DNA of 64,000 nt from a virus: the IMG/VR virus record IMGVR_UViG_3300037882_000456, positions 1 to 64,000 of that record. One strand, 5' to 3'. Both the position numbers and the translations under genes were made by a program. The number at the start of each line of letters is the position of its first letter. Position 1 is the first letter of the stretch. The notes beneath the pieces were generated by a model. That model had not been told where the DNA came from. It searched no databases and saw only the letters and a program-made list of their open reading frames with translations. Of the stretch, positions 14,757 through 61,419 are shown piece by piece.

Positions 14757-15509
14757 CTAAAGTTCGATCCAGTCGGCTGGAAGTGTCACTGCGTTGTCAT
14801 TTGGGACCGAAGTAACGCCAGTATCTGTCAAAACAGTCTCAACTGAGGGCTTCCTGTAGAACAACCTTGCATGCGTGGCTGCATCTGTAGCATCCAAAAG
14901 TCTCTGAGTTGCCGAGAACTGGTGCAAATAGAACGATCCGGTGCCAGTAGACATTCCAACGGTTACTGGTGAGGCTGCCTTCGCCGTGTACGCAATAGTG
15001 ACGAGGCGGGAGTATGGAAAGGCTCGTGAGGTTGCGGTTGCCCATACCGCGCCATTTGCGTAAACAGTGGCAGCGCCTGTAACAGTCAGGAGGCCAGCAG
15101 ATGAGATATCTACGGTAATCGCTCCTCGTGCGATCCTGACCGTTCCAGAGACTGGCTTTACCATGAAAGAAACAGAACCAACATCTACCTGATCTTGCCC
15201 TGCGATTAGCGGCTTGCAGAATGCGATTCCAGTTGTGCTAGTTTCCACTAGCACGCCATGCTGGTGCATGAGTTGTGGGCGCTTCTTGGGAACAATGGTT
15301 ATCGTTGACGTTCCAATGTCGTGAGCGCCGCCCGAGGATAGGATGTTGTTTGCCGTAGCACCACCCTGGGCGAAAGCCCTGAATTGTAGGCTCTTGATGT
15401 CGCAGGTGTCACCGGAGAATGTGGACTTCAACGGAATATTCAGGGAGACAACCTTTCCGTCAGCGGGAACCGTATAGTTGCCAGTAATGGTAGTTGACTT
15501 CCTAATCAC
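14757..15509 (-). CDS. Virion-associated protein, beta-rich
   Basis: 250 aa, rich in Thr, Ser, Ala and Val, with repeated beta-strand patterns (GTVRIARGAITVDISSAG). It ends in a segment (SVPNDNAVTLPADWIEL) like other tail-associated proteins. It overlaps the next gene by 4 bases within a run of fibre and LamG-like genes, which suggests a minor tail or decoration protein. No specific family was recognised. Confidence 0.65.
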   Translation of the reverse strand: MIRKSTTITGNYTVPADGKVVSLNIPLKSTFSGDTCDIKSLQFRAFAQGGATANNILSSGGAHDIGTSTITIVPKKRPQLMHQHGVLVETSTTGIAFCKPLIAGQDQVDVGSVSFMVKPVSGTVRIARGAITVDISSAGLLTVTGAATVYANGAVWATATSRAFPYSRLVTIAYTAKAASPVTVGMSTGTGSFYLHQFSATQRLLDATDAATHARLFYRKPSVETVLTDTGVTSVPNDNAVTLPADWIEL

Positions 15510-16993
15510 TGTAGAACCTCCGTGATACCTGAGATTTCTGCATCGATGTAGAAGTAGGGCTGCCTAATGGTCAGTCCCTCACGAAGGGCGACATCAAAGT
15601 TGATCGCCTTTTCAGCACGCACCGGGCGAGACGCTGAGGCGTACTCGGAAGTGAAGAATGTGTGAGCGCCCCAAGACGTAGAGGATACGGTTGGTGCCGC
15701 GTCGTCGAAACTATCCCATAGCCTCAACTGCCAAGTCCAGTTTGCCTGACTCGTGTAGTACGGCTGGTCGAAGGCCCCGTTGGCAGTGGATCGAGTGTTG
15801 CCAAATGTAACCTCGTAGTCTCTAAAGTTAATCCCAGCAGTTCCAGCAACAAGCATCGCGGTGCTTCCATAAACAACGTATAGGCCGTTAGGGTTCCAGC
15901 CAAACCCAACATTTACTGCCGTCGCGTTACCAATCGCTGTAGCCGGTGTCGCTTGCTGAGTTACGGTCACAGAAGATGTGTCGATAAAGTTTGCATCTAC
16001 AGAAAAGACAGTCCTGAGAAGATCCAGCCTATTGCCAGTGTTAAACCTGAGAGCGAACTGGTCAAGCCCTGGCCTTGCCGAGCGCAGATGAACAATGCCT
16101 CTGTTCGTTGCCGATGTGGTGTAGGACGGAATCTGAACGTTTGCGATTCCAGCGTTGGCTCCCCAAAAACCGGATGCACCGACAGTAAAGTAGGAGTTTG
16201 TTGCAGTATCATATTCCTCCACCACGCCAAGATCCAAACCAAGAGCGCCATTCTCAACTGCCAGCCCGCTCACTAGGAACTCTGACCATGGAAGAGCCTT
16301 TGGAATGTCGTACTTAACGGCGTAGTCCTGAGAGAAGTCTGAAATATCGTAATCGACAAAGTCGTATCTTGCGCTGGCGTCAGGCGTTCCAAAGACCGCC
16401 TCTACCTGCCTAGACTGTACGAGAGGATCTGTCTGGAAAGATCGGTACAGGCCAAACGCGCCGAACACAAGTGTGCCTGCGGCAGGAGAGGTCATGGAGA
16501 CAGTTGTGTGCGGCTTGAAATCTAGGTTGGCTACATCCCCTGATGCAACCAAAACTGCATCTACCCAAATTGAGTAGTTAGATCGAGTCATGCTAATCGA
16601 AATCTGAGTCGTATCATCAGGCGTGAACTCTACTGGAACGACTTTCAGGGTAGTGTAAGGAAGTGTAATGTTGGCTAGGCCAGTAGACACGAATTCGATT
16701 AGGTTGTCTGCACCGGCCTTTGCTACCGTGAAGCCTGCCGACCCGGCCATGTACAGATAGAACTCTAGACACACAGAATCGTAAGTGTACAGGGACGGAA
16801 TCGGAATGGACATTGACTTTGATGCCGCTGCGCCGTCAAACAGATATGCAAAATCAGACCCTGATACTATCGGGTCAACCTGCACTGGCGAGCCAGTCAA
16901 AGAAACAGCAGCACCAGATACCGCATCCACTAGAGACGCGTCGTGTAGAACCAGAACGTCGGCATCTACAATGGCTCTATCAAGTAGGGCCAC
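15506..16993 (-). CDS. LamG/concanavalin-like virion protein
   Basis: 495 aa. The first 190 residues resemble a LamG/ConA-like jelly roll (FAYLFDGAAASKSMSIPIPS, then TTQISISMTRSNYSIWVDAVLVASG), a fold often used for glycan binding on phage tails; a second similar domain appears to follow. Probably a receptor-binding or adhesion component. The call is from strand pattern and context. Confidence 0.6.
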   Translation of the reverse strand: MALLDRAIVDADVLVLHDASLVDAVSGAAVSLTGSPVQVDPIVSGSDFAYLFDGAAASKSMSIPIPSLYTYDSVCLEFYLYMAGSAGFTVAKAGADNLIEFVSTGLANITLPYTTLKVVPVEFTPDDTTQISISMTRSNYSIWVDAVLVASGDVANLDFKPHTTVSMTSPAAGTLVFGAFGLYRSFQTDPLVQSRQVEAVFGTPDASARYDFVDYDISDFSQDYAVKYDIPKALPWSEFLVSGLAVENGALGLDLGVVEEYDTATNSYFTVGASGFWGANAGIANVQIPSYTTSATNRGIVHLRSARPGLDQFALRFNTGNRLDLLRTVFSVDANFIDTSSVTVTQQATPATAIGNATAVNVGFGWNPNGLYVVYGSTAMLVAGTAGINFRDYEVTFGNTRSTANGAFDQPYYTSQANWTWQLRLWDSFDDAAPTVSSTSWGAHTFFTSEYASASRPVRAEKAINFDVALREGLTIRQPYFYIDAEISGITEVLQ

Positions 16994-16998: not shown

Positions 16999-17295
16999 TC
17001 ATGCCCCTAGAAGTTCCAGAGTCACTGGGGTTGGGATTCCTTCGTCCATACCTCGGATACCTGCGCTTAGTTGAAACTCAGTAAGTGCAGCCCTTACGTC
17101 TGGAAAACTAGAGTCTCCGTCAACATCATATCCAGCCTCAATAAGGCCTGCGAGTGCGGCCTGCCATTCTGGCAACGAGAGCGTGGTTACGCGCGTGGGA
17201 GCCTCCGGTGTCTCATCGACTACAACCTCTAGAACAGTCTCTACTGTCGTCTCGGCGTAATCCTCGAATACCTCATCAAAATTCTTGCTTGCCAT
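16999..17295 (-). CDS. Small protein with peptidoglycan-binding-like repeat
   Basis: 98 aa. An acidic Val/Glu-rich N-terminal half is followed by a segment whose pattern (AGYDVDGDSSFPDVRAALTEFQ, then TPVTLELLG) resembles a PG_binding_1 domain. It may attach a virion part to the cell wall. GAGGAAAC precedes the ATG. Domain assignment is tentative. Confidence 0.55.
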   Translation of the reverse strand: MASKNFDEVFEDYAETTVETVLEVVVDETPEAPTRVTTLSLPEWQAALAGLIEAGYDVDGDSSFPDVRAALTEFQLSAGIRGMDEGIPTPVTLELLGA

Positions 17296-17313: not shown

Positions 17314-17592
17314 TTATCGACCGATCAGGAAGTGAACCGTAAGCCATGAAAGAAACACAACTATACCCACTCGCCAGAAAATCGCCCAATACAGAGTCTT
17401 GGACCTCGTTCCAAGCCAGATCTGCTCAGATAGTGTATCAAGTTTGCCCGAACGCCTAAGACCGTACCACTCCATTGTACCAAAGATTAGACCCCAGCCT
17501 ACCCAGGCAAGGAAGAAAGCGTCTAGGGCGAAGGCGGTGACGGTAAGCGTACACGCTGCTATTAGAATCAGAACTGAAACCTTCTTAAACAC
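17314..17592 (-). CDS. Small membrane protein
   Basis: 92 aa with three hydrophobic segments (VLILIAACTLTVTAFALDAFF, AWVGWGLIFGT, and IFWRVGIVVFLSWLTVHFLI). The GTG at 17592 is chosen because GGAGGAGG lies four bases upstream, whereas the earlier ATG has none. It overlaps the cupin gene by 8 bases. A membrane protein inside a virion operon is unusual; a holin role is possible but unsupported. Confidence 0.7.
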   Translation of the reverse strand: MFKKVSVLILIAACTLTVTAFALDAFFLAWVGWGLIFGTMEWYGLRRSGKLDTLSEQIWLGTRSKTLYWAIFWRVGIVVFLSWLTVHFLIGR

Positions 17593-17980
17593 TAAACCTC
17601 CTCCTGTAAAACTCATGTGCTTCCATCATTCCCTCATCAGTATATAGCCTTGGGCGGCGGTGCTGATAATTCCAAGTAATAAAGAGTGTCCAGGTACCGG
17701 GCTTTAACTCGCTGATATAGTGTGCGTCAGTATTCTTCATTTTGTGGAATGAAAGTGCGCGGCGCTTGACAAACCTAGAATCGTCCAAGCCCTCTGCCGG
17801 ATTCTTAAACAGCCTCTCTGTGTACCAGCCCCACAGACCAACGGATAGGAAATCGCTCGGATGATCGTGCGGGACCTCGATCATTTCCGAGGCTGGGTCG
17901 AGTCGGTGCAGAGAAAGCGTGAAAAAGCGATTCATCACAAAAAGATACTCTGTGATCTCGCCACGGATGCTCTTTTTCAT
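17585..17980 (-). CDS. Cupin-like protein B
   Basis: 131 aa, paralogue of the gene at 19131-19547. Shared pattern: NRFF, a His cluster followed by SDFLSVGLWGWYTE (HDHPSDF here, HNHGCDF in the paralogue), FHKMKNT and a TLFITWNY segment with basic residues. This resembles small cupins common in phages, where the His cluster binds a metal. The start is the ATG at 17980, 12 bases after the ANL stop. It sits between the ANL gene and a membrane protein. The substrate is unknown. Confidence 0.6.
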   Translation of the reverse strand: MKKSIRGEITEYLFVMNRFFTLSLHRLDPASEMIEVPHDHPSDFLSVGLWGWYTERLFKNPAEGLDDSRFVKRRALSFHKMKNTDAHYISELKPGTWTLFITWNYQHRRPRLYTDEGMMEAHEFYRRRFSV

Positions 17981-17992
17981 AACTTCCAATCT

Positions 17993-19150
17993 CTAGACGG
18001 AGACGAATCTCTCGGGAATAGAATACGACGGCAGACCGTCATTTTCAAGGTACAGACGTAGGGCCTGCTCATCAATTGTACCACGATGGGCGCAGACCAG
18101 AGAGCCCTCCTCGACGTACACGGACTTGACGTTGTACCCGCGAGCGCGAAGCATATTGCAAATCTCTACAGGGAACACAGAAAAGCCACTCACCTTTGCC
18201 TTGCCTCTACCGATCAACTCGATCAAATCGCCATGAGCCTCTATAACGTCGCCGGTATCTACAAAGTCCTTCTTTTGATAACCGGAACCATCAATGGTCC
18301 CGACAGTCATCTCGCTAACAAGTCTGTCGCCAGAGCCCTCTACCATTGGTGCCATCCAAAAGAAAGGCTCGCTCGCCATGCGTGCGCCTAAGATTCCTGC
18401 CTCGGTACACGAGTAAACGTCTACGATCTCTGGGTTGCCGAATACAACCTTGGCTTGCTCAATCGAATCCTCACCTAGTGGGGCCGATGCGGATAGAAAG
18501 CAGCCAAACTTTCGCTGATATCCTGCTGACCACAACTTGCTGACAACCATGCCCTTCGTCATAATAGAAAGGTCATCTGCCTGGACAAATGCGCTCAGGC
18601 TGTCTGCCGTTGGTCTTTCTGTCATCATAGACAGGGGAACCTCTAGGGCAAGTGCGGCGAGATAAGAAAGAACCGTCGTTTGGAGTGGAGCCGTCATAAA
18701 GGCGCGACCGATGAGCAGGGCGGGCATTGTCTTTTCTCCCCAATCAATCATCTTCTCGATCATATCTGGCTGCATGAAATACGGCTCTACGATGTTGATC
18801 TTTGGCGTTCCAGATGTGCCAGACGACACGGACGCAAGAGAGCCGTCAGGAAACCCTGAGGCGTGTGCCAGAAACTGACCAGTGAGGCGATCCGCCACTT
18901 CTCCACGAAAGAAGTTGGGAAGGGCAAAGACCCTTGCGCCGCCTGCGAGAAGCCCTAAAACCTGGGGGATTTGAATAGGGTCGCCCGTAATGGAAAGAAC
19001 AACAGCCTCTCCCTTTACACCTTCCGATGAGCGAAGGGCTGCCGCCTCGAACTCCCTGCCAGACATTGCTTCGCCGTCAAGCCTGATCGGCTCGGGCATC
19101 TGACTAATCTTGTCAATCAGATAAAGAGCATCAAGCGACGGTGGCACCAT
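17993..19150 (-). CDS. ANL-superfamily adenylate-forming enzyme
   Basis: 385 aa. Motifs in order: SSGTSGTPK (109-117), the A3 phosphate loop; YSCTE (246-250), A5; DTGD (298-301), A7; and GRGKAKVSGFSVFPVEI (314-330), A8 hinge. These enzymes activate a carboxylate as acyl-AMP and often pass it to a thiol or amine. The protein stops at YSIPERFVSV, just before the A10 block with the catalytic lysine. The start is the ATG at 19150, overlapping the upstream cupin gene. Finding such an enzyme inside a virion operon is unusual; its substrate cannot be read from sequence. Confidence 0.85.
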   Translation of the reverse strand: MVPPSLDALYLIDKISQMPEPIRLDGEAMSGREFEAAALRSSEGVKGEAVVLSITGDPIQIPQVLGLLAGGARVFALPNFFRGEVADRLTGQFLAHASGFPDGSLASVSSGTSGTPKINIVEPYFMQPDMIEKMIDWGEKTMPALLIGRAFMTAPLQTTVLSYLAALALEVPLSMMTERPTADSLSAFVQADDLSIMTKGMVVSKLWSAGYQRKFGCFLSASAPLGEDSIEQAKVVFGNPEIVDVYSCTEAGILGARMASEPFFWMAPMVEGSGDRLVSEMTVGTIDGSGYQKKDFVDTGDVIEAHGDLIELIGRGKAKVSGFSVFPVEICNMLRARGYNVKSVYVEEGSLVCAHRGTIDEQALRLYLENDGLPSYSIPERFVSV

Positions 19151-19547
19151 GACCGAGTCTCGTGTACATCTCGCCCATCGTTTCAACTTCGCCGTTTGGG
19201 CCGTATGCCAGAGGCGGCTTGTGTGCATAGTTAAACGTGATGAACAGAGTGTACGCTGGGGTGTCAGAAACCGATGCAATCTTGTGCAACTGAGTGTTGT
19301 TCATCCTATGGATGTTAAACCTGCGCCTCATGTGGTTTACAAAGCCATCTTCTACAGCGTCTGCCTTGAAAACATTCTCTGAGTACCAGCCCTTTAGACC
19401 GATGGAGACAAAGTCACATCCATGGTTGTGAGGAAATGCCTCCTCGTCATCAGGAACCGTGATCCTATTAAGCATCACACTAAAGAACCTGTTATGAATG
19501 TACTGCTTGCGAGACATACTTGATCCGCCTCGGTCGTCAAACTTCAC
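19131..19547 (-). CDS. Cupin-like protein A
   Basis: 138 aa, paralogue of cupin B. Contains HNRFFSVMLNRI, PHNHGCDFVSIGLKGWYSE and FNIHRMNNTQLHKI followed by TLFITFNYAHKP, matching a metal-binding cupin. GTG at 19547 is chosen because GGAGG lies eight bases upstream inside the preceding micro-ORF, whose TGA overlaps this GTG (GTGA). It is coupled to the ANL gene by a 20-base overlap. Confidence 0.65.
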   Translation of the reverse strand: MKFDDRGGSSMSRKQYIHNRFFSVMLNRITVPDDEEAFPHNHGCDFVSIGLKGWYSENVFKADAVEDGFVNHMRRRFNIHRMNNTQLHKIASVSDTPAYTLFITFNYAHKPPLAYGPNGEVETMGEMYTRLGHGATVA

Positions 19548-19642
19548 TGTGTCACCTCCGTGTCAATTCCAACGAACGAATCCGCTGGTGCTTCTGCGGG
19601 TGGTGCGTCGAGTGCCACCACCCAAGTCTTTGTGCCCTCCAT
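19544..19642 (-). CDS. 32-aa micro-ORF between GNAT-like and cupin genes
   Basis: Starts at ATG 19642 in a TAATG overlap with the upstream gene, with GGAGGG eight bases before it, and stops at a TGA that overlaps the next GTG. The peptide begins MEGTKTWVVALDAPPAEAP and is Pro/Ala/Asp-rich. Perfect start-stop coupling on both sides argues that it is translated. It may act only to couple translation or be a small partner of the enzymes. Confidence 0.6.
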   Translation of the reverse strand: MEGTKTWVVALDAPPAEAPADSFVGIDTEVTQ

Positions 19643-20076
19643 TACAGAATGCCCTCCAAGAAGATCGCGCGTTCGGCGTCCTTCCTCTGCTCCTGCATTG
19701 CGTTATCAACGGGAGGGAAGTCGTCAATGTTCTTTGGGATAGCGAACCCATACCTGTCAGCAACCAGCCTGCCAGCGGGTGAGGGATCGTGGATGTAGAT
19801 CCTCTTAATTCCTGCGGCCTCTTTGGTGTAGTAGAACAACTTGGTAAAGATGCCCTGCTCCTGGTACATCGGAGATGTCCAAACAATCCCGCCAGTAACA
19901 CACGAGCCAACACAATTATCGCACATGGTCCCTGCGCGCGCGGTCTTAAAGGTCACAATGGAGACGACTTCGCCTGATTCGTTCTGCGCTACGCCGACGA
20001 CTGCGCCACCACCCCATAGGTGAATAGACTGCTGGACCTCGTCCTGCGTAAGTAACCTGTACTGAATTTCACTCAT
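19642..20076 (-). CDS. GNAT-like acetyltransferase
   Basis: 144 aa. The middle and C-terminal part follows the GNAT pattern: a central strand (GGIVWTSPMYQEQGIFTKLF) in place of the acetyl-CoA loop, then a helix, KRIYIHDPSPAGRLVADRYGFAI, typical of the last strand-helix unit. Cys residues (MCDNCVGSC) in the middle are extra. First gene of the enzyme cassette, with a -10 (TATAAT) exactly 6 bases upstream of ATG, so probably leaderless. The acyl donor and substrate are unknown. Confidence 0.6.
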   Translation of the reverse strand: MSEIQYRLLTQDEVQQSIHLWGGGAVVGVAQNESGEVVSIVTFKTARAGTMCDNCVGSCVTGGIVWTSPMYQEQGIFTKLFYYTKEAAGIKRIYIHDPSPAGRLVADRYGFAIPKNIDDFPPVDNAMQEQRKDAERAIFLEGIL

Positions 20077-20082
20077 GGGTCA

Positions 20083-20088
20083 ATTATA
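20083..20088 (-). promoter_or_regulatory. Extended -10 promoter of the enzyme cassette
   Basis: Minus strand TGGTATAAT; TATAAT is followed by TGACCC and then ATG of the GNAT-like gene. It gives the ANL/cupin cassette its own predicted leaderless transcript inside the virion arm. Confidence 0.65.
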
Positions 20089-20109
20089 CCATGGGACAAA
20101 GCAAACTGC

Positions 20110-20628
20110 TTACGGTTCTAGGGCTAGAATGCGCGCTTCAAGGGCATCCATGCGGTCATCTAGGCCCTGTGCTCTCACGTTTAGATTGAGCACGGCATTC
20201 GCCTGAATGCCAGTTGAGCGTGCGCCTGATGCAAGCAGCATACTGTACGCATAAGAAACCTGAGTTAGAACCAGGAAGGCAAGTTTGTCTACGGTGTCAG
20301 ACCTATAGTTGAACGCGCTATAGTTTCTCAGAGCAACCTGGACGGGTGTGTTGGCTGTGGCGAACTCTGTCGGCGTCACAGAACCGTCCTCCGTTGCCAC
20401 CCTAAGCGCCTCTAGTGCGGCCATAAGTTGTCCAGACATAACGCTAATCGCCGTGATCTCTTCTGCGGGGGCAGAAGGGAAGTTTGCTAGATACTCAGCA
20501 AGGTCATCCTGGTTTCGTGGTCGAACGGCTTCGACAATAAGCCTGCTTTGATCCACGACCTGAACCGTTTGTGTAACGGTGTCGTAAACCTTAATGTTGC
20601 CTGTTGGCAACAGCCACTCTCTAATCAT
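20110..20628 (-). CDS. Virion protein with C-terminal coiled coil
   Basis: 172 aa. Starts at the ATG of a TAATG overlap with the upstream gene. N-terminal residues (MIREWLLPTGNIKVYDTVTQ) form strands, the middle is helical, and the end (GLDDRMDALEARILALEP) is a short heptad coiled coil, as in trimeric fibre or whisker parts. Role inferred from context. Confidence 0.65.
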   Translation of the reverse strand: MIREWLLPTGNIKVYDTVTQTVQVVDQSRLIVEAVRPRNQDDLAEYLANFPSAPAEEITAISVMSGQLMAALEALRVATEDGSVTPTEFATANTPVQVALRNYSAFNYRSDTVDKLAFLVLTQVSYAYSMLLASGARSTGIQANAVLNLNVRAQGLDDRMDALEARILALEP

Positions 20629-22030: not shown

Positions 22031-23016
22031 TACGCTGCACCCGACTCGATTGTGATTGCCTTGACGCCGAGGGCAGCGATGTCAGAGTTAAAGTAGATAT
22101 TCTTCATGGCTCCACCAATGGTTAGTTTGATTGCTCCACCACCGCCGTTGTAATCAAGACAGATCATTTGGAATGGGTGGTCAGCCGATACCAAGCCCTT
22201 CGGGGCAGACCTGTTAGATGTCACAATGGAATACCCTGGTGCGGCACCGGTGCAAGTAAGATAAGAAGAGTAGATCGTCTGTGCGCCAGTGATCGCTCCG
22301 TATGGAGTTACGAGTTCTGTATCTCCTGGCGTCGAGGCATTGGCAGTATTGTACTGCGTTGCTGACTCTGGCCCAACAAAGTGATCGCTGAACAGGACTC
22401 TAGGCCCAGGGCCATTGTTGTACACAAGGCCAACGCGGTACATCTTGATCAGATCAAATATCACGCCCGTCTTTGTGGCGAAAACACCTGCATACCTGTT
22501 GTTTCCTGTCATTGAATTGAGCAACTGGCTATACTGAAATGGAGTGCTAAAGTTCAAGTCCATTAACTTCAACCATGTTGCGCCGCTCTTGTAGTGAACT
22601 ACCCAGCCATATTGACCTGGCGACATCTTTATTGTCTGAACGGATCCGCGCGCGAATGGGCATGGAATCTCGGTAACTGACGCAACACCGGGGCCGAGCA
22701 CCGAGGGAGTTGTGCCTGCAAGTTTCAGCGTTAGAAGAGTGTCGCTACCAACATAAGAGATTTCAAACTTCACGCCCGTGGTGAAGTTAAGGCTGTTTGT
22801 GTTTGTAAAGAGGCCAGCACCGTCCTGAATTGCGAACGTGGATTCGACTGTCATTGGGCTAGAGTTGATCACGCTACTTGCGGCTACCATTGCCAAAGTT
22901 CCATTAGCGGAGTTATTGACCACGCCGGTTGCTCCGCTTGTGCCCCACGAACCCGCGATCTCAGTGACGCCTAGGATTCCTGGGACCGAGCCATCAATCA
23001 TAAAGAATGGCTTCAT
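22030..23016 (-). CDS. LamG-like virion protein
   Basis: 328 aa made of two similar beta-sandwich units: residues about 20-190 and 200-320 both have strand patterns such as VKFEISYVGSDTLLTLKLAG and end in a motif binding-like loop. The domain type suggests glycan recognition at the tail. Overlaps the collagen-like gene by 4 bases, which suggests both form one fibre assembly. Confidence 0.6.
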   Translation of the reverse strand: MKPFFMIDGSVPGILGVTEIAGSWGTSGATGVVNNSANGTLAMVAASSVINSSPMTVESTFAIQDGAGLFTNTNSLNFTTGVKFEISYVGSDTLLTLKLAGTTPSVLGPGVASVTEIPCPFARGSVQTIKMSPGQYGWVVHYKSGATWLKLMDLNFSTPFQYSQLLNSMTGNNRYAGVFATKTGVIFDLIKMYRVGLVYNNGPGPRVLFSDHFVGPESATQYNTANASTPGDTELVTPYGAITGAQTIYSSYLTCTGAAPGYSIVTSNRSAPKGLVSADHPFQMICLDYNGGGGAIKLTIGGAMKNIYFNSDIAALGVKAITIESGAA

Positions 23017-24563
23017 GGAGTTGTCCAGTCTAGCCTGAAAGTGACCTTAGTTGGAGCAGTTCCTGTAATCGAGGTTGCGGCGATCTGAATTACGCTGCCT
23101 GCTGTACCTGCATGAGAGACGCTAAATGCCTGATATGTTACACCGGCGGTTACTGTCATCGGTGCTCCAAAGTTTGTTCCATCCTTTACCAACTGGATGT
23201 TAAATGAATCCGAGCCTGCGACTGCGGTGTAAACCACCCTGGTGATTGTGAAAGCATCTGGCATTGGGAGTCTTGCATCATATGTCTTTGACGCTAGCGT
23301 GCCGATGCCGCCGAATTGCGCCGTTACTGCACCGTTAGTGCCGTTGGTTCCAGCAGCGCCATCAGATCCGTCAAGTCCTGGGTCGCCCTGGATACCTTGA
23401 ATACCCTGGATTCCTTGATCACCTTGGATTCCTTGAATGCCCTGAGCGCCGTCGCTGCCATCGAGGCCTGCATCACCCTGAATTCCCTGGATTCCTTGAA
23501 TACCCTGATCGCCTTGATCGCCCTGGGGGCCAGGAACCGTAGAGTCTGCGCCTGGGATGCCCTGAATTCCTTGGATTCCTTGGATTCCTTGATCACCCTC
23601 TGGACCTGGAACTGTAGAGTCTGCGCCGTCAGCGCCATCGACACCTGGAATTCCCTGAATGCCTTGGATTCCCTGGATACCCTGGTCACCTTCTGGTCCC
23701 GGTACGGTCGAGGCAGCGCCAGTCTCACCTTGAATGCCCTGGATTCCCTGAATGCCCTGGATTCCTTGATCTCCGGTGTCACCCTTATCACCTTTGTCAC
23801 CCTTGATTCCCTGGATGCCCTGATCTCCCTGGTTTCCGAGATCGCCCTTTAAGCCCTGAATTCCCTGATTACCCTGGATTCCCTGGATCCCCTGGTCACC
23901 AGTGTCACCCTTAACACCCTGAATGCCTTGATCGCCAGTGTCACCCTTAATGCCCTGAATTCCTTGAATACCCTGAATTCCCTGCTCACCCTGAGGGCCT
24001 CTGATCTGACCAGCGTTCGTCCACTGAGTCCCAGTCCAAACCATACCATCGCCTGCGATGCCGACACCAGACTGAGAAGCAGCAAGGATCCACATATCAC
24101 CTGACTGTGGTGACTCTAGAGCGATTGCAGACCAAGTTGCCGTTCCCTTGACAACAATTCCAGAGCCGTCTTGTCCATCAAGACCATCCACACCGGGCTC
24201 GCCACGGAACGTTCCAACGTCAATCCAAGAAGAACCATCCCAAACCCAAAGGTTATCTCCAACAACATAAGAAACTACGCCGTTTCCAGATGGGTACGCT
24301 GCAATAAGGTCGCCAGAGGTCGGGAATGATCCGCCGATAGTTCCGTAGCCAAGCGTCTTAAGACCATAGGTTCCGTCTGTACGACGGAAAAGAACCTGAT
24401 AAGCGCGGCCACCAGATGTGCTTACATCAGCCAAGTCGTCAAGCGAAATAGTCGCGCCGGTGCTTGTGGTGGGCTGGCCTCCTACTGGGGCCGTTGAAGA
24501 AAACCCTGGAAGGCCTGGGGAAGTTACAATTCCCGATTCTTGGGACTCATCGTATACAGGCAT
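23013..24563 (-). CDS. Collagen-like tail fibre protein
   Basis: 516 aa. Residues about 187-412 are Gly-X-Y triplets (GIQ repeated many times, with GDK, GDT and GPE/GPQ interruptions such as STVPGPEG), expected to form a collagen-type triple helix. The N-terminal part has LDDLADVSTSG and a WxGTQW-type module common in tail fibres; the last 90 residues form a beta-rich C-terminal domain, probably the trimerising tip. The -10 TATAAT ends 6 bases before the ATG, so the mRNA is likely leaderless. Confidence 0.9.
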   Translation of the reverse strand: MPVYDESQESGIVTSPGLPGFSSTAPVGGQPTTSTGATISLDDLADVSTSGGRAYQVLFRRTDGTYGLKTLGYGTIGGSFPTSGDLIAAYPSGNGVVSYVVGDNLWVWDGSSWIDVGTFRGEPGVDGLDGQDGSGIVVKGTATWSAIALESPQSGDMWILAASQSGVGIAGDGMVWTGTQWTNAGQIRGPQGEQGIQGIQGIQGIKGDTGDQGIQGVKGDTGDQGIQGIQGNQGIQGLKGDLGNQGDQGIQGIKGDKGDKGDTGDQGIQGIQGIQGIQGETGAASTVPGPEGDQGIQGIQGIQGIPGVDGADGADSTVPGPEGDQGIQGIQGIQGIPGADSTVPGPQGDQGDQGIQGIQGIQGDAGLDGSDGAQGIQGIQGDQGIQGIQGIQGDPGLDGSDGAAGTNGTNGAVTAQFGGIGTLASKTYDARLPMPDAFTITRVVYTAVAGSDSFNIQLVKDGTNFGAPMTVTAGVTYQAFSVSHAGTAGSVIQIAATSITGTAPTKVTFRLDWTTP

Positions 24564-43814: not shown

Positions 43815-43886
43815 GGTCGATTAGTGTAGAGGTTCGCACAGGTCCCTGTCAAGGATCTAGTACGGGATCGTTCCCCGTATCGACCG
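43815..43886 (+). tRNA. tRNA-Asp (GTC)
   Basis: Acceptor GGTCGAT/ATCGACC, anticodon stem GGTCC/GGATC with loop CTGTCAA, T stem ACGGG/CCCGT. The T loop ATCGTTC departs from the usual TTCRANY. No encoded CCA. Confidence 0.85.
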
Positions 43887-43897
43887 CGTAAGTTCGA

Positions 43898-43979
43898 GCG
43901 TCGTGGCTCATGGAGAGCAGGGAGGTTGTAACCCTTCCGTCGTTAGACAAAGGTGGTTCGATTCCATCACGGCGCACCA
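43898..43979 (+). tRNA. tRNA-Tyr (GTA)
   Basis: Acceptor GCGTCGT/ACGGCGC, anticodon loop TTGTAAC, long variable arm (GTC/GAC stem), T loop TTCGATT, encoded CCA. Confidence 0.9.
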
Positions 43980-43980
43980 C

Positions 43981-44055
43981 ACCGCCATCGTATAATGGAC
44001 AATACGGGAGACTTTCAATCTTCTAATCGGGGTTCAATTCCCCGTGGCGGTACCA
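43981..44055 (+). tRNA. tRNA-Glu (TTC)
   Basis: Acceptor ACCGCCA/TGGCGGT, anticodon loop CTTTCAA, T loop TTCAATT, encoded CCA. Confidence 0.9.
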
Positions 44056-44056
44056 T

Positions 44057-44130
44057 GGGAGTATGGTGTAGTGGTAACACAGAAGATTCCAAACCTTCTG
44101 CCTGAGGTTCGATTCCTTGTACTCCCGCCA
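44057..44130 (+). tRNA. tRNA-Trp (CCA)
   Basis: Acceptor GGGAGTA/TACTCCC, anticodon loop TTCCAAA closed by an A-C mismatch, T loop TTCGATT, encoded CCA. Confidence 0.85.
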
Positions 44131-45874: not shown

Positions 45875-45903
45875 TTGACATACACCCCGCCTGCTGGTAG
45901 ACT
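45875..45903 (+). promoter_or_regulatory. Promoter of the rIIA/rIIB-like operon
   Basis: TTGACA (45875-45880), 17-base spacer, TAGACT (45898-45903). Leader CACCAACAGAAAGG before ATG 45935. Confidence 0.75.
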
Positions 45904-45934
45904 TACCTCACACCAACAGAAAGGAACCACCCGC

Positions 45935-55438: not shown

Positions 55439-55515
55439 TGGAGCGAGTACGGGGATTCGAACCCCGACTAAATGATTGGAAGTCACTTGTGCTGACCATT
55501 GAACACTACACTCGC
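55439..55515 (-). tRNA. tRNA-Gly (TCC)
   Basis: Acceptor GCGAGTG/TACTCGC, anticodon loop CTTCCAA, T stem CGGGG/CCCCG with TTCGAAT, encoded CCA. Confidence 0.9.
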
Positions 55516-55550
55516 GTGAGTCTCTATTGTAGCACGTTTGAGCGTGGCTG

Positions 55551-55769
55551 TCAAGCCGATGTAACGTTCCCACAGCGACAGCAGTGACCGCCCTGGCTCT
55601 TCCAAACCCACACATGACCACCACTAAACAAGCAGTCCATGGAGTCAATGTAGTCATTTCGCCAGCGGTACTGCGTCTCAACACCCTGGTGATCGCCCTC
55701 GTGGAACACAGGGAACGTACACCAAATGTCATTAGCGTTAAGCGAGGGGCAGCGTTGTGGCCTACTCAT
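55551..55769 (-). CDS. Small Cys/Trp-rich protein
   Basis: 72 aa, CPSLNANDIWCTFPVFHEGDH in the first half and HCCRCGNVTSA at the end, a four-Cys zinc site. ATG 55769 overlaps the previous stop (ATGAGTAG). Confidence 0.65.
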   Translation of the reverse strand: MSRPQRCPSLNANDIWCTFPVFHEGDHQGVETQYRWRNDYIDSMDCLFSGGHVWVWKSQGGHCCRCGNVTSA

Positions 55770-55929
55770 CAACACCACCGACAAGTTCAATCAGAGTATC
55801 GAGTTCGGGTTCGTCACCGAAAGCGTTGCATTCACCAACATACTGACGAATTGCGTTGAACTTGTCCTTGTATTCAGCAATCATGGCGTCAATCTCTGAC
55901 TCTCTCAGGGTCCAAAGGTCGTCACTCAT
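55762..55929 (-). CDS. Small acidic helical protein
   Basis: 55 aa (SDDLWTLRESEIDAMIAEYK). Overlaps both neighbours by 8 bases; GAGAGGAAAAGAC upstream. Not recognised. Confidence 0.6.
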   Translation of the reverse strand: MSDDLWTLRESEIDAMIAEYKDKFNAIRQYVGECNAFGDEPELDTLIELVGGVDE

Positions 55930-56059
55930 TGTCTTTTCCTCTCAGCCAAGCCCACACAGCAACAGCGGTGCCAGCAATTGCTAGCCAGATAGCGTGCCAG
56001 TGGATCAGAAGGTGTAAATTGTGTGTAACCCATTCAGGTAGCGTGACATTCGCATTCAC
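55922..56059 (-). CDS. Single-pass membrane protein
   Basis: 45 aa from GTG 56059: a short outside part, one membrane helix (HAIWLAIAGTAVAVWAWL), and a basic end. Supported by overlaps with both neighbours. Confidence 0.55.
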   Translation of the reverse strand: MNANVTLPEWVTHNLHLLIHWHAIWLAIAGTAVAVWAWLRGKDNE

Positions 56060-56168
56060 AGGTTAAAATCCTATCTCCGATGTCCCTGCCATTCCAGCAC
56101 TTCTTGTGGTTACCGTCCAGGCACCACCCAAGTTTATGAGTGGTGCCTGGACTTGGCCTTCGTGCCAA
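56034..56168 (-). CDS. Small Cys/His-rich protein
   Basis: 44 aa ending in LGWCLDGNHKKCWNG ... LTCECECHAT, a pattern like small actinobacterial CxxGxHxxC...CxCxCH proteins. TTG 56168 is the best start (AAGAAG upstream). A 13-base-pair hairpin (stems 56117-56129 and 56142-56154) lies within the start of the gene, so the N-terminus is uncertain. Confidence 0.5.
   Translation of the reverse strand: MARRPSPGTTHKLGWCLDGNHKKCWNGRDIGDRILTCECECHAT
56117..56154 (-). terminator. Large hairpin after the lipoprotein gene
   Basis: GTCCAGGCACCAC / GTGGTGCCTGGAC, 13 perfect base pairs with a 12-base loop, starting about 16 bases after the lipoprotein stop. Confidence 0.6.
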
Positions 56169-56169
56169 C

Positions 56170-56724
56170 TTACTTCTTGCTGTTGAGGCGCGGCACATCA
56201 ATCGGCAGCGGCTGGTCAGCGTAGATGTAATCGAGGTTGGTAGCAACGTACGCACCCTCGGTGGTGAAGAAGAATACGCCATCTTCGTTAGGACCGTACG
56301 AGCCGTCATCACCAGGAGCATTCACAACGGTCGGGCAGCGACCATCGCCACCACCAGGGCAACCATCGATCACGAGGCTGTCAGTGGTCATCTGCGAGCC
56401 GTTGGACGAAACCTTGCCCTTAACGGCGTAGTATCCAACAATGTTTCCGTAGTTCATCACATAAACATAGCCAAGTAGGTTCGGCTTGTTCGTGCGGAGC
56501 AGACGCTCCTTGATGTTGCGACGCTCCTGAGAGTCCTTCAACTGCGCGACAGGATACGGAACGGCGTCCGACTGCTGCTTAAAGGCAGTCTCAGTCTGCT
56601 TCTGGCCTTCGCCCTGAGCAGTGTTGGGCTTTACCTCGTCCATGCAAGCGGTCAGGGGAAGCATCAGGGCGAGAGCACCGATGGCGAGGCCGATCTTACG
56701 CTTGTTGTTTGAAAAGATATTCAT
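56170..56724 (-). CDS. Predicted lipoprotein
   Basis: 184 aa. N-terminus NNKRKIGLAIGALALMLPLTAC is a lipoprotein signal with lipobox LTAC, so the mature protein begins at that Cys on the outer face of the membrane. The rest is soluble with a GYVYVMNYGNIVGYYAVKGKV strand block and a Cys pair. Phage lipoproteins often block superinfection; this is inference. Preceded by a membrane-anchored gene and ends in a strong hairpin. Confidence 0.75.
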   Translation of the reverse strand: MNIFSNNKRKIGLAIGALALMLPLTACMDEVKPNTAQGEGQKQTETAFKQQSDAVPYPVAQLKDSQERRNIKERLLRTNKPNLLGYVYVMNYGNIVGYYAVKGKVSSNGSQMTTDSLVIDGCPGGGDGRCPTVVNAPGDDGSYGPNEDGVFFFTTEGAYVATNLDYIYADQPLPIDVPRLNSKK

Positions 56725-56745
56725 GTTTATCCTAACGTTTGTGGA

Positions 56746-57177
56746 CTACTTGCAGTCCGTGGCTGGGTCTTGGTCATCGATGACCTGGGGAAGATCAGTC
56801 GAGCGGAAATCCTCACGACTGTACTTGCGAGCATCAGCGTTGTAGGTTTCTACAGCACCGACACAGAACTGCTGGACGCCTGTGTAGTTGGTACGCAGGG
56901 TCGGATCAGTAGGATCGAGGTCAAGAGCCTCCTTAGCGATGGCAACCTTCTTGTCTGCTGCCTTGATGTCAGCGTAGGACTGCTCGAAAGCCTCCTGCGC
57001 TTGAATGCGGTTATTGGCCGTGTTCTTCTGCTTGATAGCATTTCCCTTGCCCGCTACGTTCGACGTAGCAACGCCGATGTACCAAATGACAGCGGGAAGA
57101 ATGATGATCACGATAACGGCAACAACGATGGCAACGACGACGCCAGCACTACCAGCGTCTCTGCGATTCTTAAGCAT
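56746..57177 (-). CDS. LemA-like membrane-anchored protein
   Basis: 143 aa. One N-terminal membrane helix (AGVVVAIVVAVIVIIILPAV), then a helical domain (NNRIQAQEAFEQSYADIKAA) resembling LemA-type proteins. ATG 57177 has AGGAG four bases upstream and follows the phosphoesterase stop directly. Function unknown. Confidence 0.65.
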   Translation of the reverse strand: MLKNRRDAGSAGVVVAIVVAVIVIIILPAVIWYIGVATSNVAGKGNAIKQKNTANNRIQAQEAFEQSYADIKAADKKVAIAKEALDLDPTDPTLRTNYTGVQQFCVGAVETYNADARKYSREDFRSTDLPQVIDDQDPATDCK

Positions 57178-57184
57178 ATTGCTC

Positions 57185-57796
57185 CTAGTCATTGTAGTCT
57201 GAGTTGAATAGATCAGTTAGCGTTTGTGCTTCAACAGGGAACCAGTCCCAAACATCAACGCCAACGTTTACATCCGTACCACGCTTTTTCCACATGCTGT
57301 GAACGTGGCCGTGAATTGTGGGGCCAGTAGGTCGGTACTCAGCGAACCTATCTGGCTCGTACTCAAAGTCCTGACCAGTCTTGTCCCTAGCCTGCCTGCG
57401 GAAATCGCATTGAGCAGGGAAGTGACTGAGCCAAACCTTTTTCGTTCCAAGGAAGTGAGGCACCGGACCTTGCTGAATCTCTAGACCAGCATCCTGATAA
57501 CGCTCAACAAACTTGGCGTACTTCTTGTTACCAATCCAACATTCGTCATGGTTGCCAGGGATGAAGGTCTTGATACCCTTCATCTTCTCGACCCAACTGA
57601 GAGCGTTGGTCACCGAGCCAAGGGACAGGTCGCCTACAATGTAGACGCTGTCATTCTCTTGAACTCTGTCGTTGTACCGAGCCACCAGTTCACGATCCAT
57701 CTGCTCAACGCTGTTCCACGGGCGGTCAGGCTCGTGGCGCAGGATGTTCTTGTGACCGAAGTGCTGGTCTGCGGTGTACCAAGTCGTTGTCGTCAT
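57185..57796 (-). CDS. Calcineurin-like phosphoesterase
   Basis: 203 aa. Metal-binding motifs in order: ADQHFGH, VGDLSLG, GNHDE, LSHFP and HGHVH, the full set for a two-metal metallophosphatase. Likely a phosphodiesterase acting on nucleotides or nucleic acid; substrate unknown. ATG 6 bases after TAGGAT (57808-57803), so probably leaderless. Confidence 0.9.
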   Translation of the reverse strand: MTTTTWYTADQHFGHKNILRHEPDRPWNSVEQMDRELVARYNDRVQENDSVYIVGDLSLGSVTNALSWVEKMKGIKTFIPGNHDECWIGNKKYAKFVERYQDAGLEIQQGPVPHFLGTKKVWLSHFPAQCDFRRQARDKTGQDFEYEPDRFAEYRPTGPTIHGHVHSMWKKRGTDVNVGVDVWDWFPVEAQTLTDLFNSDYND

Positions 57797-57802
57797 AGGA
57801 GT

Positions 57803-57808
57803 ATCCTA
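57803..57808 (-). promoter_or_regulatory. Extended -10 promoter, leaderless start
   Basis: Minus strand TGGTAGGAT followed by ACTCCT and ATG 57796. Confidence 0.6.
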
Positions 57809-57827
57809 CCAGAGTCGGGGCTGTGTG

Positions 57828-58925
57828 TCAAGAGGTTCGTACTGCGTCTACCCAGGTCTGAGGAACCCTTGTGGCAGGCCAACCTGTGCCCCACCAGTCA
57901 TGCTGCTCAGTATAAACCCAGGCGTACTTATCTGACGTTTGCTTGGCGAGGGTGATCGTGGGACCGAACTGTGTAACGTCCATCGTGACACCGCGATATC
58001 CAAGATCGAACACTCCATGACTTACAGACACGCCAGGAGATAGCGTGCGCTGCCAACTAGATGTAGACTGGAATTGAGACAGGGTGCGCTCTGTATAAAG
58101 TTCTCCACCATCAACAAGGTTCACTCCAACATCTAGGCCAGATACGAATGGACCGTGATCCTCATTGGCCCATGAGACATCATTGTAGTTGGCCGTTACA
58201 TTGTTGATTGTCCTAGGATCACTAATCCATGGACCAAAGGTGGAGAGCACCGTTACACCGGGCCAGCCTGCTGCAAACCCAGCGCCCACCTGTGAGCCTC
58301 TATCAAATGCTGCGGCCTGACAGATGGCTACCGTGGAATTGCAACCGTTAGGAACGTCCCACGAGCCTCCAAAGTAACGCTCTCCGTCATAGAAGATGCC
58401 CTCAAAGCCAGCATCCTTAGCGGCTGCGGCCAGATTCTTAGCATTCTGTGCTGGAATCGTCCAGTCACCTAAAACGCCAGGGTCGTTTCCAGCATAAACC
58501 ATTACGAAGTTATGCTTTACCTTCTGGAACGGCGCGCCCTTCATTGGTGCAAGTGCGGTAGCGTACTGTGCTTGACTAACCGGAGTGTTCGTCAGAACAG
58601 TCGAAGATAGATTCGGCATTGTTACAACAACACCATCAAACGGCATTTGATCCATGCTCGCAACGTGGGAGCCCGCAAATGCCACAGATGGAATATCCCA
58701 CCCGTGCTTGATTAGCAACTTCCCACTAGACGTAGCGGTAGGAGTTGGCGTGGAGGTTGTAGTTGGCGTAGGAGTTGGCGTCGTGGTAGGTGTCGGAGTT
58801 GCTGTTGCAGTAGGCGTTGGCTTAGGCTTTGGGCCGCGGCCCCTACCTGCCTCTGCCGGTGAGGACAGCAAGAAGAATCCAACTACAAGAATAGCAGAGG
58901 CGAGAACTGCGATTACCTTTCTCAT
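57828..58925 (-). CDS. Secreted glycoside-hydrolase-like protein
   Basis: 365 aa. Signal peptide (AVLASAILVVGFFLLSSPAEA), a Pro/Thr linker of repeated TPTP units (residues about 34-68), then a domain with a barrel-like strand-helix order, FEGIFYDGERYFGGSW with acidic residues at a strand end, GWPGVTVLSTFGPWI, and a last strand DYAWVYTEQHDWW-type. The layout is that of exported polysaccharide-degrading enzymes. No family could be named. A phage gene for an exported enzyme with such a linker is unusual and suggests capture from a bacterium. Confidence 0.7.
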   Translation of the reverse strand: MRKVIAVLASAILVVGFFLLSSPAEAGRGRGPKPKPTPTATATPTPTTTPTPTPTTTSTPTPTATSSGKLLIKHGWDIPSVAFAGSHVASMDQMPFDGVVVTMPNLSSTVLTNTPVSQAQYATALAPMKGAPFQKVKHNFVMVYAGNDPGVLGDWTIPAQNAKNLAAAAKDAGFEGIFYDGERYFGGSWDVPNGCNSTVAICQAAAFDRGSQVGAGFAAGWPGVTVLSTFGPWISDPRTINNVTANYNDVSWANEDHGPFVSGLDVGVNLVDGGELYTERTLSQFQSTSSWQRTLSPGVSVSHGVFDLGYRGVTMDVTQFGPTITLAKQTSDKYAWVYTEQHDWWGTGWPATRVPQTWVDAVRTS

Positions 58926-59344
58926 TCCTCTACATCCTCAACCATGATCGTGAATCCATAGCCGTAGTAGAATGGGTTTCCACATGACCAGCCAACAGTC
59001 AGTTTAAGGATGTCTCCCATATCTGCGTAGATGTGCCACGTTGAGTAACCGTCTGTCGTACCGACGCCTGTGATCAAGTGACCGACCATTTCAGGGTTCA
59101 AGAGGAACGCCTGAACTTCGGTGAACGCACAGCAGTCAGCCTCACCAATCAACTTGACGCGCTTGCCGTTGTCAAGGGTAATGATCGTAGCCTGATCCGT
59201 GCCGTAATACTGTCTCTGTGCCTCGCCTCTTTCAACACTGACGATCTTATGACCGACCAGTACGCTCTCTAGGCTGTCACGGCTTTCAACCATGGTGCCG
59301 TCATCTTCCCATTCGTCAAGAATTTCAGGTTCGTAGATCGTCAT
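58922..59344 (-). CDS. Conserved actinophage protein
   Basis: 140 aa, with LVGHKIVSVERGEA, ATIITLDNGKRVKLIGEADCCAFTEV, and GYSTWHIYADMGDILKLTVGW, matching an unnamed family (DUF7448-like) frequent in actinophages. Role unknown. Overlaps the secreted-protein gene by 4 bases. Confidence 0.75.
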   Translation of the reverse strand: MTIYEPEILDEWEDDGTMVESRDSLESVLVGHKIVSVERGEAQRQYYGTDQATIITLDNGKRVKLIGEADCCAFTEVQAFLLNPEMVGHLITGVGTTDGYSTWHIYADMGDILKLTVGWSCGNPFYYGYGFTIMVEDVEE

Positions 59345-59366
59345 TAGTTTCTCCTAAGTTTGTAGG

Positions 59367-59442
59367 TGGTACCCCTTGTCGGATTCGAACCGACACCGTA
59401 ACGGGCTTAAACCGTCTGCCTCTACCGTTGGGCTAAAGGGGC
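59367..59442 (-). tRNA. tRNA with anticodon TAA (Leu by anticodon)
   Basis: Acceptor GCCCCTT/AAGGGGT, anticodon stem GACGG/CCGTT with loop TTTAAGC, T stem GTCGG/CCGAC, encoded CCA. The variable loop is only five bases, though bacterial tRNA-Leu normally has a long arm. Confidence 0.75.
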
Positions 59443-59518
59443 TTGTGCATAGGGGGCCTGGGTCCATCGACCAGCAGAGTGCGACTCTACCTGTAGGCCT
59501 ATCCTCGGCTACCCTTTG
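59443..59518 (-). pseudogene. tRNA-like sequence, probably degenerate
   Basis: Between two real tRNAs and a small gene: a D-arm-like GTAG/CTAC stem and an anticodon-like arm GTAGA GTCGCAC TCTGC (would read CGC), but no proper T arm or acceptor pairing. Confidence 0.35.
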
Positions 59519-59689
59519 TCATCTGTTGCCGCAACCCACGAAGTTTGCTTTAACATCTGAGTCATCTGGAATTATTGTTACGGCCATCCAGCCTATGCGT
59601 ACCCCGCCAAGGTATCGATCCCTGTTCCATCGGTTAAAAGCCGATTGCATCAACCTTAAATGCTTGCGAGGCTTACTGATAACGTCCAT
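59519..59689 (-). CDS. Small basic protein between tRNAs
   Basis: 56 aa (DVISKPRKHLRLMQSAFNRW), ATG 59689 with GAGGG upstream. It fits exactly between tRNA-Arg and the tRNA-like element. Moderate support. Confidence 0.5.
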   Translation of the reverse strand: MDVISKPRKHLRLMQSAFNRWNRDRYLGGVRIGWMAVTIIPDDSDVKANFVGCGNR

Positions 59690-59728
59690 TTCTAGGCCCT
59701 CGTGCGCGGCTGTCGTTATCTGCACCAG

Positions 59729-59801
59729 TGCCCCTGGCTGGAATCGAACCAGCGTATAACACTTTAGAAGAGTGCCGCGTCATCCACTACGCTACAGGGG
59801 C
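59729..59801 (-). tRNA. tRNA-Arg (TCT)
   Basis: Acceptor GCCCCTG/CAGGGGC, anticodon stem GCACT/AGTGT, loop CTTCTAA, T stem GCTGG/CCAGC. No encoded CCA. Confidence 0.9.
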
Positions 59802-59834
59802 GTATAACTATACTACCACAGTCGCTTGGTGGTG

Positions 59835-60548
59835 TCAAGCAACCTTGGCTGCGGCTTTAACCCTGGTGACGTAGTTGGCTGCCTGAGTCGTTGGGTAAAC
59901 GCCTGAGACTACGAACTTCCTGGCATTTACAGGAGAGTTGTGAGACAGGATCGCGGCGTCCCAAGCCCTATCTGAGTCAGTCGTCATCGTACGGTACTCA
60001 TTGTATCGAGTACGAAGGCGCTTGGCAGACAGAGGGATAACAAATAGCGGATCAGTCATTTGATCAACGCTAAGAGACTGGTTGTAGTAGGTGTTGAACT
60101 GGCAGATGCCAATGTCCTTGGGAGTGTAATAGCCAACAGCACCCATATCCCAGTTTGCCTCGGCACCGATCTGACCCCATAGGAATCGACCAGGAATACC
60201 GTTAACCTTCTCGTGCTCTGCGATGAATGCACGCAATAGGGCCTTCGATGTAGTTGGGCCAACAACTCCGTCAGCGGGTGCTGCATAAACAGCCTGGAAC
60301 GCACGAACGTTCTTGTCTGTAAGAGGACCGAATACACCAGGGTTAGTCGAATACTCAAACGTATACCCGGCCTTATTCAGCATCTTCTGAATAGCAAAGA
60401 CAGCGCGGTTAACCGCCCACTTGTCCTGCGTTTCGCATGACGCCAAGCCTGCGGAACTTCCGGCAACGTACATGCTCTTGCCGAGCAGGTTACCTCTCTT
60501 TGTCCAGGCTCCACGACCAGTGGGCCCAGGTGTTGGCATTACGCTCAT
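59835..60548 (-). CDS. Endolysin: peptidoglycan-binding plus lysozyme-like domain
   Basis: 237 aa. Residues about 40-110 form a peptidoglycan-binding domain (NRAVFAIQKMLNKAGY, then VFGPLTDKNVRAFQAVYAAP and GVVGPTTSKALL). The C-terminal part resembles a transglycosylase/lysozyme fold: RFLWGQIGAEANWDMGAVG with a catalytic-type Glu, then DIGICQFNTYYNQ. ATG 60548 is chosen for TTTGGAGGAATT upstream. No signal peptide, so it needs a holin; no obvious holin is adjacent, though four membrane genes lie at 51-53 kb. Confidence 0.8.
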   Translation of the reverse strand: MSVMPTPGPTGRGAWTKRGNLLGKSMYVAGSSAGLASCETQDKWAVNRAVFAIQKMLNKAGYTFEYSTNPGVFGPLTDKNVRAFQAVYAAPADGVVGPTTSKALLRAFIAEHEKVNGIPGRFLWGQIGAEANWDMGAVGYYTPKDIGICQFNTYYNQSLSVDQMTDPLFVIPLSAKRLRTRYNEYRTMTTDSDRAWDAAILSHNSPVNARKFVVSGVYPTTQAANYVTRVKAAAKVA

Positions 60549-60624
60549 TCTAATTCCTCCAAAGTATGTTGGGCCGTTTATACTCATGCCCAGGAGATAT
60601 TGCTTCCCTGATATAACCAGTATA

Positions 60625-60810
60625 TCAGAGGTTGAGGTAGGATGCCCACAGAATCTTGTTCGCTGCTTCGCGCTCTGCCTGTGCCTTGCGGCGGGCTTCC
60701 TTCCTCTTTTCGCCCCTTGCCCAGCACCTTGCTCGACGTGCCTTGCGGTTCGGGTTGCTCATGCGGGTTGAAGCGGGATTTCCCTTCAACCCATTAGGAC
60801 TGCTTGCCAT
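60625..60810 (-). CDS. Small very basic protein
   Basis: 61 aa, Lys/Arg/Ala-rich (NPNRKARRARCWARGEKRKE). AGGAGGTGACTATAC before the ATG. Likely nucleic-acid-binding. Confidence 0.6.
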   Translation of the reverse strand: MASSPNGLKGNPASTRMSNPNRKARRARCWARGEKRKEARRKAQAEREAANKILWASYLNL

Positions 60811-60861
60811 GTATAGTCACCTCCTCAGGTTACCTATAACATGGCAGTCCTCCAATTGAAT

Positions 60862-61032
60862 TCATCGCTTTCCTTCCGTCTTGCCTGTGTAAAGCCTGCC
60901 TCGATTTCGCAGATGGTCGCGCTTACGCAACCTTACGAAATACGTGCCGACTAGGTTGTTGTGCCTTTCGGCCCAGACCCAACCATACACCAACGACCTG
61001 TCCCCATTTGGGGCAGAATTTGGTCCTGGCAT
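60862..61032 (-). CDS. Small basic protein
   Basis: 56 aa (YGWVWAERHNNLVGTYFVRL), strong AGGAGGTGATTTAC site. Not recognised. Confidence 0.6.
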   Translation of the reverse strand: MPGPNSAPNGDRSLVYGWVWAERHNNLVGTYFVRLRKRDHLRNRGRLYTGKTEGKR

Positions 61033-61064
61033 GTAAATCACCTCCTAACAGTATCGTTAGAAAG

Positions 61065-61196
61065 TTAAGTCATGGTTTGATCCTTTCTCCACGCGCGATT
61101 CTCGCGCTGGCGGTCGATTTTCTTAGTGATACGCTTGTGACGCTTGCCTCCACAGATAGGGCAGCCATACGTCCAAGACTTCGGAACCTTTATCAT
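61065..61196 (-). CDS. Small zinc-finger-like protein
   Basis: 43 aa, basic, with YGCPICGGKRHKR. It starts right after tRNA-Gly(GCC) on the same transcript, without a clear ribosome site. Confidence 0.5.
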   Translation of the reverse strand: MIKVPKSWTYGCPICGGKRHKRITKKIDRQRENRAWRKDQTMT

Positions 61197-61199
61197 AAG

Positions 61200-61271
61200 T
61201 GCGGTAGACGAGAATCGAACTCGCTTGACAACGTTGGCAACGTCGCATAATATCCAGTATATGACTACCAC
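61200..61271 (-). tRNA. tRNA-Gly (GCC)
   Basis: Acceptor GTGGTAG/CTACCGC, anticodon stem CGACG/CGTTG, loop TTGCCAA, T loop TTCGATT. Confidence 0.85.
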
Positions 61272-61275
61272 TGAG

Positions 61276-61346
61276 AGCCAAGGGAGAGAATCGAACTCTC
61301 TTTGAATGCGTACCATGCACTCGTAATACCATTATACTACCCTGGC
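61276..61346 (-). tRNA. tRNA-Thr (GGT)
   Basis: Acceptor GCCAGGG/CCTTGGC, anticodon stem AGTGC/GCATT, loop ATGGTAC, T stem GAGAG/CTCTC. Confidence 0.85.
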
Positions 61347-61348
61347 GG

Positions 61349-61419
61349 GGTGACTAGTGGGAATCGAACCCACACTGATTGGGACACAACCAATCGTGAT
61401 ACCATTTCACTATAGTCAC
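61349..61419 (-). tRNA. tRNA-His (GTG)
   Basis: Acceptor GTGACTA/TAGTCAC, anticodon stem ATTGG/CCAAT, loop TTGTGTC, discriminator C as expected for His. Confidence 0.88.

Follow-up and report, generated by a model that had tools for sequence, protein, structure and literature searches.

Linked genes for enzymes lying amid the virion genes of a phage raise the question of whether they form a functional unit and, if so, what the encoded proteins might act on. We asked this of a cassette in a freshwater-type phage, using a 64,000-nucleotide stretch of DNA (hereafter the window) that comes from a 71,881-base virus record, IMGVR_UViG_3300037882_000456. Elsewhere in the window, adjoining genes at 45875-48792 match the rIIA and rIIB families, and 19 tRNA genes lie in two regions (43815-44130 and 55439-63212).

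Results

Five of six linked open reading frames recur together in a second phage

The cassette consists of six open reading frames, all located on the minus strand between positions 17314 and 20076. In the direction of transcription these are a GNAT-like protein (19642..20076, 144 aa), a micro-ORF (19544..19642, 32 aa), cupin A (19131..19547, 138 aa, GTG start), an ANL-superfamily protein (17993..19150, 385 aa), cupin B (17585..17974, 129 aa, ~38-40% identical to cupin A), and a small hydrophobic, probably membrane protein (17314..17592, 92 aa) of PHROG 3555, a family with no assigned function. These coordinates include three corrected start sites: the ANL gene begins at the ATG at 19150, the listed 428-aa open reading frame being over-extended, and the genes for cupin B and the membrane protein begin at the ATG at 17974 and the GTG at 17592, respectively. 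An earlier reading of the sequence alone (the sequence-only reading) had described the six genes as an enzyme cassette within the virion operon, joined by overlapping starts and stops. The genes lie where that reading placed them, and the overlaps are present from the GNAT-like gene through to the ANL gene (1 nt between GNAT and micro-ORF, 4 nt between micro-ORF and cupin A, 20 nt between cupin A and ANL) and between cupin B and the membrane protein (8 nt); the ANL and cupin B genes do not overlap and are separated by an 18-nt gap.

A second phage, represented by IMG/VR contig 3300031857_000945 (L001), carries the GNAT, micro-ORF, cupin A, ANL and membrane protein genes in the same order, with 1-, 4- and 20-nt overlaps identical to those of the window. 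As in the window, the L001 cassette adjoins collagen-like, 317-aa-type, PG-binding-like and 495-aa-type genes together with the portal gene. The N-terminal extension of the listed ANL reading frame has no counterpart in L001, and cupin B was not found anywhere on the L001 contig, which places it outside the conserved core. The recurrence of gene order, overlaps and in-frame indels at 36-73% protein identity means that the cassette is real and more than a product of chance.

Comparison of the two phages gave pN/pS ratios, which are rough because synonymous sites are near saturation, of 0.23 for the ANL protein (73% identity), 0.30 for cupin A (69%), 0.25 for the portal (77%), 0.35 for the 495-aa protein (60%), 0.58 for the GNAT-like protein (36-37%), 0.63 for the 172-aa protein encoded upstream (37%), 0.59 for the membrane protein (36%), and 0.58 for the micro-ORF (56%; 36 aa in L001), whose indels are whole codons. 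Because the identities and ratios of the ANL protein and cupin A are close to those of the portal, these two proteins form a strongly constrained core within a variable region, in which the GNAT-like protein, the membrane protein and the flanking fibre proteins are merely 36-60% identical. The comparison thus indicates that the cassette is maintained by selection in this second, diverged phage.

The cassette is predicted to be read together with virion genes

Immediately upstream of the GNAT-like gene, at 20077..20091 on the minus strand, lies an extended -10 promoter sequence, TGGTATAAT-N6-ATG, the ATG being that at 20076. The class to which it belongs, TGnTAnA(A/C)T-N6-ATG, occurs 8 times in the window, compared to 0.23 occurrences expected under a first-order Markov model, and includes sites at 42050+, 52936-, 28058-, 24563-, 20076- and 14723-. 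Given the six-base spacing to the ATG, transcripts from these sites would begin on the start codon or immediately beside it and so be leaderless. A sigma-70 scan alone did not rise above chance in this stretch, and an Rfam scan for structured RNA gave no match. L001 has sites of the same class at 3443, 4519, 11568 and 14192; those at the collagen-like gene (24563) and at 14723 in the window recur there, and one L001 site precedes the PG-binding-like gene, with none at the GNAT-like gene. The proposal that the cassette is headed by its own promoter therefore holds for the window, with an over-represented class of site, and does not extend to L001. The predicted transcripts couple the cassette to the second set of fibre genes in the window and to the collagen unit in L001.

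Downstream, on the same predicted transcript, are a 98-aa protein (16999..17295, minus strand) with weak PG_binding_1 similarity, a variable acidic N-terminus and 56-59% identity to its L001 counterpart, and the 495-aa probable fibre protein (15506..16993, minus strand). Upstream, the 172-aa protein (20110..20628, minus strand) is the last gene of the collagen-fibre transcript, at the head of which lies the collagen-like fibre gene (23013..24563, minus strand) with its own leaderless promoter. The description of the flanks as fibre-type is borne out for the collagen-like protein (PF01391); no other flanking virion-type protein scored above the Pfam cut-off.

The ANL proteins of both phages end before motif A10

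Several lines of evidence make membership of the ANL superfamily well supported at the level of sequence. Although the Pfam AMP-binding match falls below the Pfam cut-off (E 0.009), TIGR02372 matches the protein at 1e-4, and hhalign aligned the ANL profile with three bacterial ANL proteins over residues 23-384 (P 97.5%, E 6e-12). Foldseek returned ANL structures in all 50 matches listed, from a poor input model (pLDDT 42), and all five marginal tblastn matches in plasmids are annotated as ANL-type proteins. The A3 P-loop is present in the two phages as SSGTSGTPK and SSGTSGMPK (consensus (T/S)SG(T/S)TGxPK), and A5 (YSCTEAG), A7 (DTGD) and A8 (GRxKAKVSGF) are retained in both, with an A8 hinge loop 2 residues short. 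The phage protein is ~21-25% identical to bacterial ANL proteins and most resembles compact acyl/aryl-CoA ligases such as TIGR02372 and MenE: its 385 residues run in register with the 386-position TIGR02372 model and share A3, A5, A7 and A8. It differs from those ligases in its shortened hinge loop, its location in a phage virion operon, and its C-terminus.

Both phage proteins terminate at IP(E/R)RFV-(S/P)-V(D), template position 446 of 475, ahead of the GK of motif A10 (Px4GK), and thus lack the A10 catalytic lysine. We saw no frameshift that would extend the protein to an A10; both reach a stop codon, and the next frames encode cupin B or the membrane protein. Because the stop falls at the same point in two phages at 73% identity, in a constrained gene, the loss is a fixed trait and not decay or sequencing error. 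In a comparison of class I adenylate-forming enzymes by Clark et al., the A10 lysine is fully conserved, and mutating it reduces adenylation (PMC6122825); the passage of PMC8388817 that cites this comparison puts it at 374 sequences. It follows that the phage protein is an ANL homolog by sequence and not a demonstrated adenylating enzyme. Hence the earlier assignment to the ANL family stands, whereas carboxylate activation, proposed with the missing A10 overlooked, cannot be assumed.

Cupins, the GNAT-like protein and the micro-ORF

Both window cupins match PHROG 4786 (E 3e-14 and 2e-11) and align with diverse phage cupins by hhalign (P 98.8%), supporting their assignment, as first read, to this widespread phage cupin family. 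The H-x-H...H metal triad (H40, H42 and H88 in cupin A) is invariant in 8 of 8 diverse phage cupins, as are G-x-Y-x-E and one threonine; a TLFIT core is also shared. The cassette cupins differ from other family members in being shorter, in lacking the WGF tail motif, in their linkage to an ANL gene and, in the window, in occurring as two copies. The label "cysteine dioxygenase" is that of PHROG 4786 only, and the thiol-oxidising activity and Cys-Tyr cofactor that go with it are putative. Searches of the cupins against PDB sequences gave no meaningful match, and a fold search with the cupin model gave E above 0.5 and was not usable; the AlphaFold models were poor.

Phages of Pseudomonas, Burkholderia, Brevundimonas and others also encode PHROG 4786-type cupins, beside unrelated genes and with no ANL. 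The cupin family at large is therefore found apart from such a cluster; in the lineage studied here, the linkage of cupin A to the ANL gene is kept. In one such phage, Pseudomonas phage SC_8_H2H8_2017 (4547-6309 of the locus analysed), an unannotated cupin lies downstream of a reverse-transcriptase-like gene and also follows proteins with similar C-terminal ends, an arrangement that looks like a diversity-generating system.

The GNAT assignment is weak. The Pfam match has an E of 0.16, and hhalign against RimI, SpeG and YhhY gave P 34% and E 4e-4, the alignment covering the CoA-binding segment alone. In that weak alignment the Q/RxxGxG/A loop reads QEQGIF in one phage and RSLGIF in the other; the protein shares the Q/R-x-x-G motif and the ensuing helix-strand-GF pattern with GNAT acetyltransferases but has F in place of G/A as the sixth loop residue. 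It also differs from them in a CxxCxxxC motif (19877-19925), conserved in both phages, which is possibly a metal site. We considered whether the micro-ORF might encode an acyl-carrier protein and rejected this: the DSF of the window is DGF in L001, so the serine that phosphopantetheine would need is not conserved, and 32-36 aa is too short for the four helices of a carrier protein.

The cassette has been found in two phages

Searches of ~80 portal-related viral loci by blastp or HMM gave no match to ANL or cupin besides L001 and its overlaps, and tblastn of ANL and cupin A against 50,697 phage records gave none. GTDB contigs were also scanned and yielded no relative, and a profile search of IMG/VR and genome contigs together with an A8 DNA pattern recovered L001 and otherwise no homolog beyond the superfamily level. 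A pattern scan for the cupin gave one match, in an unrelated phage context, and a scan by fibre genes for an empty site yielded, besides L001, a single contig that ends ahead of the cassette. Across IMG/VR, the 50,697 phage records, plasmids and the bacteria sampled, the searches thus turned up no further ANL of this kind, although drawing a blank in a fragment or a genome sample does not prove absence. Typical ANL queries match 37-56 of the 50,697 phage records, and the matches listed resemble host DNA, judging by names such as fadD and acsA and by short unannotated records; ANL enzymes in genuine phages therefore look very rare.

Two relatives of the portal lie in genome assemblies: a cyanobacterial MAG, whose bin includes the 110-kb contig encoding one of them (51%), and an Actinomycetota MAG, in which the other is found. 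In the phylum to which the Actinomycetota MAG belongs, 396 genomes gave two ANL matches, at the superfamily level. One of these, the nearest bacterial fragment (E 2e-6), has an intact A10 and is followed by an SDR gene and an acyltransferase-like gene.

Discussion

Taken together, our findings lead us to favour, tentatively and at somewhat below an even chance, a selected cassette of translation-coupled enzyme genes for acyl-type chemistry, read with virion genes and with a target handled late in infection. Its conserved core is cupin A and the compact, C-terminally shortened ANL protein, accompanied by the micropeptide and the GNAT-like protein. The ANL protein may bind a nucleotide along with an acyl or acyl-adenylate group and hand the acyl group to a nucleophile, adenylation being slow or carried out by another residue or by a partner; the 3-His cupin might oxidise or isomerise a small group, which the GNAT-like protein could complete or transfer. 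The likeliest target would be either one of the fibre proteins or a polymer of the host envelope. The bacterial ANL-SDR-acyltransferase-like cluster supports this explanation; against it are the absent A10 lysine, the presence of the set in only two phages (with cupin B in one), the occurrence of the cupin family elsewhere without ANL, the weak GNAT call and the poor AlphaFold models. It is plausible that the proteins form one acyl-chemistry pathway whose targets are fibres or the host envelope, and a chemical link to the collagen-like fibre, suggested in the sequence-only reading, is a guess from position. The fuller version, in which the A10-less ANL protein, 3-His cupin and GNAT-like protein build a non-standard acyl group while virions are being assembled and attach it to a tail fibre or to the host envelope, seems to us unlikely as a whole.

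The missing A10 could instead mean that the ANL protein is a pseudoenzyme, partnered by the cupin, that does not adenylate and serves as a sensor, decoy or scaffold by binding nucleotide or acyl-adenylate. The identical end point in both phages and the loss of 2 residues from the A8 hinge loop fit this idea, as does the lysine being invariant in the 374 enzymes of the cited comparison and its mutation lowering adenylation (PMC6122825). Nevertheless, the A3, A5, A7 and A8 residues are retained, and no other cassette gene is as constrained as that for the ANL protein. Moreover, A10 mutants of known enzymes can retain the second half-reaction. We regard a pseudoenzyme as on balance unlikely, with an appreciable chance of being right. 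Another reading, also unlikely in our judgement, is that the cassette is auxiliary metabolic cargo unrelated to the virion, which alters a host metabolite and sits beside the fibre genes because the site is variable. Fibre regions are indeed the most variable, cupin B was gained or lost between the two phages, and ~80 portal relatives gave no match to the cassette; strong constraint, overlapping genes, the same site in two phages and reading with virion genes speak against mere cargo.

Modification of the host envelope for superinfection exclusion or release, in which the product is put on a surface polymer with the small membrane protein helping, would account for that protein in both cassettes, for the peptidoglycan-binding-like neighbour and for the cluster around the best bacterial fragment. 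We consider it distinctly improbable, however, since the membrane protein is weakly conserved (36%), in a family of no assigned function, and no membrane-bound O-acyltransferase gene was seen in the cassette. Least probable, and very much so, is a RiPP-like system in which the cupin, ANL and GNAT-like proteins would act on the peptide encoded by the micro-ORF: conservation of the micro-ORF, whose overlaps are identical in both phages and whose indels span whole codons, favours it, but this rests on 2 sequences, the cassette shows no leader-binding domain or protease, and the micro-ORF may serve translational coupling only. A role in anti-phage defence was also considered and was dropped, PADLOC giving no match.

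A selected ANL protein that lacks A10 and is encoded in a virion operon would provide a natural test of whether ANL chemistry can proceed in the absence of the adenylation lysine, and would suggest that phage particles or host surfaces undergo a chemical modification so far undescribed.
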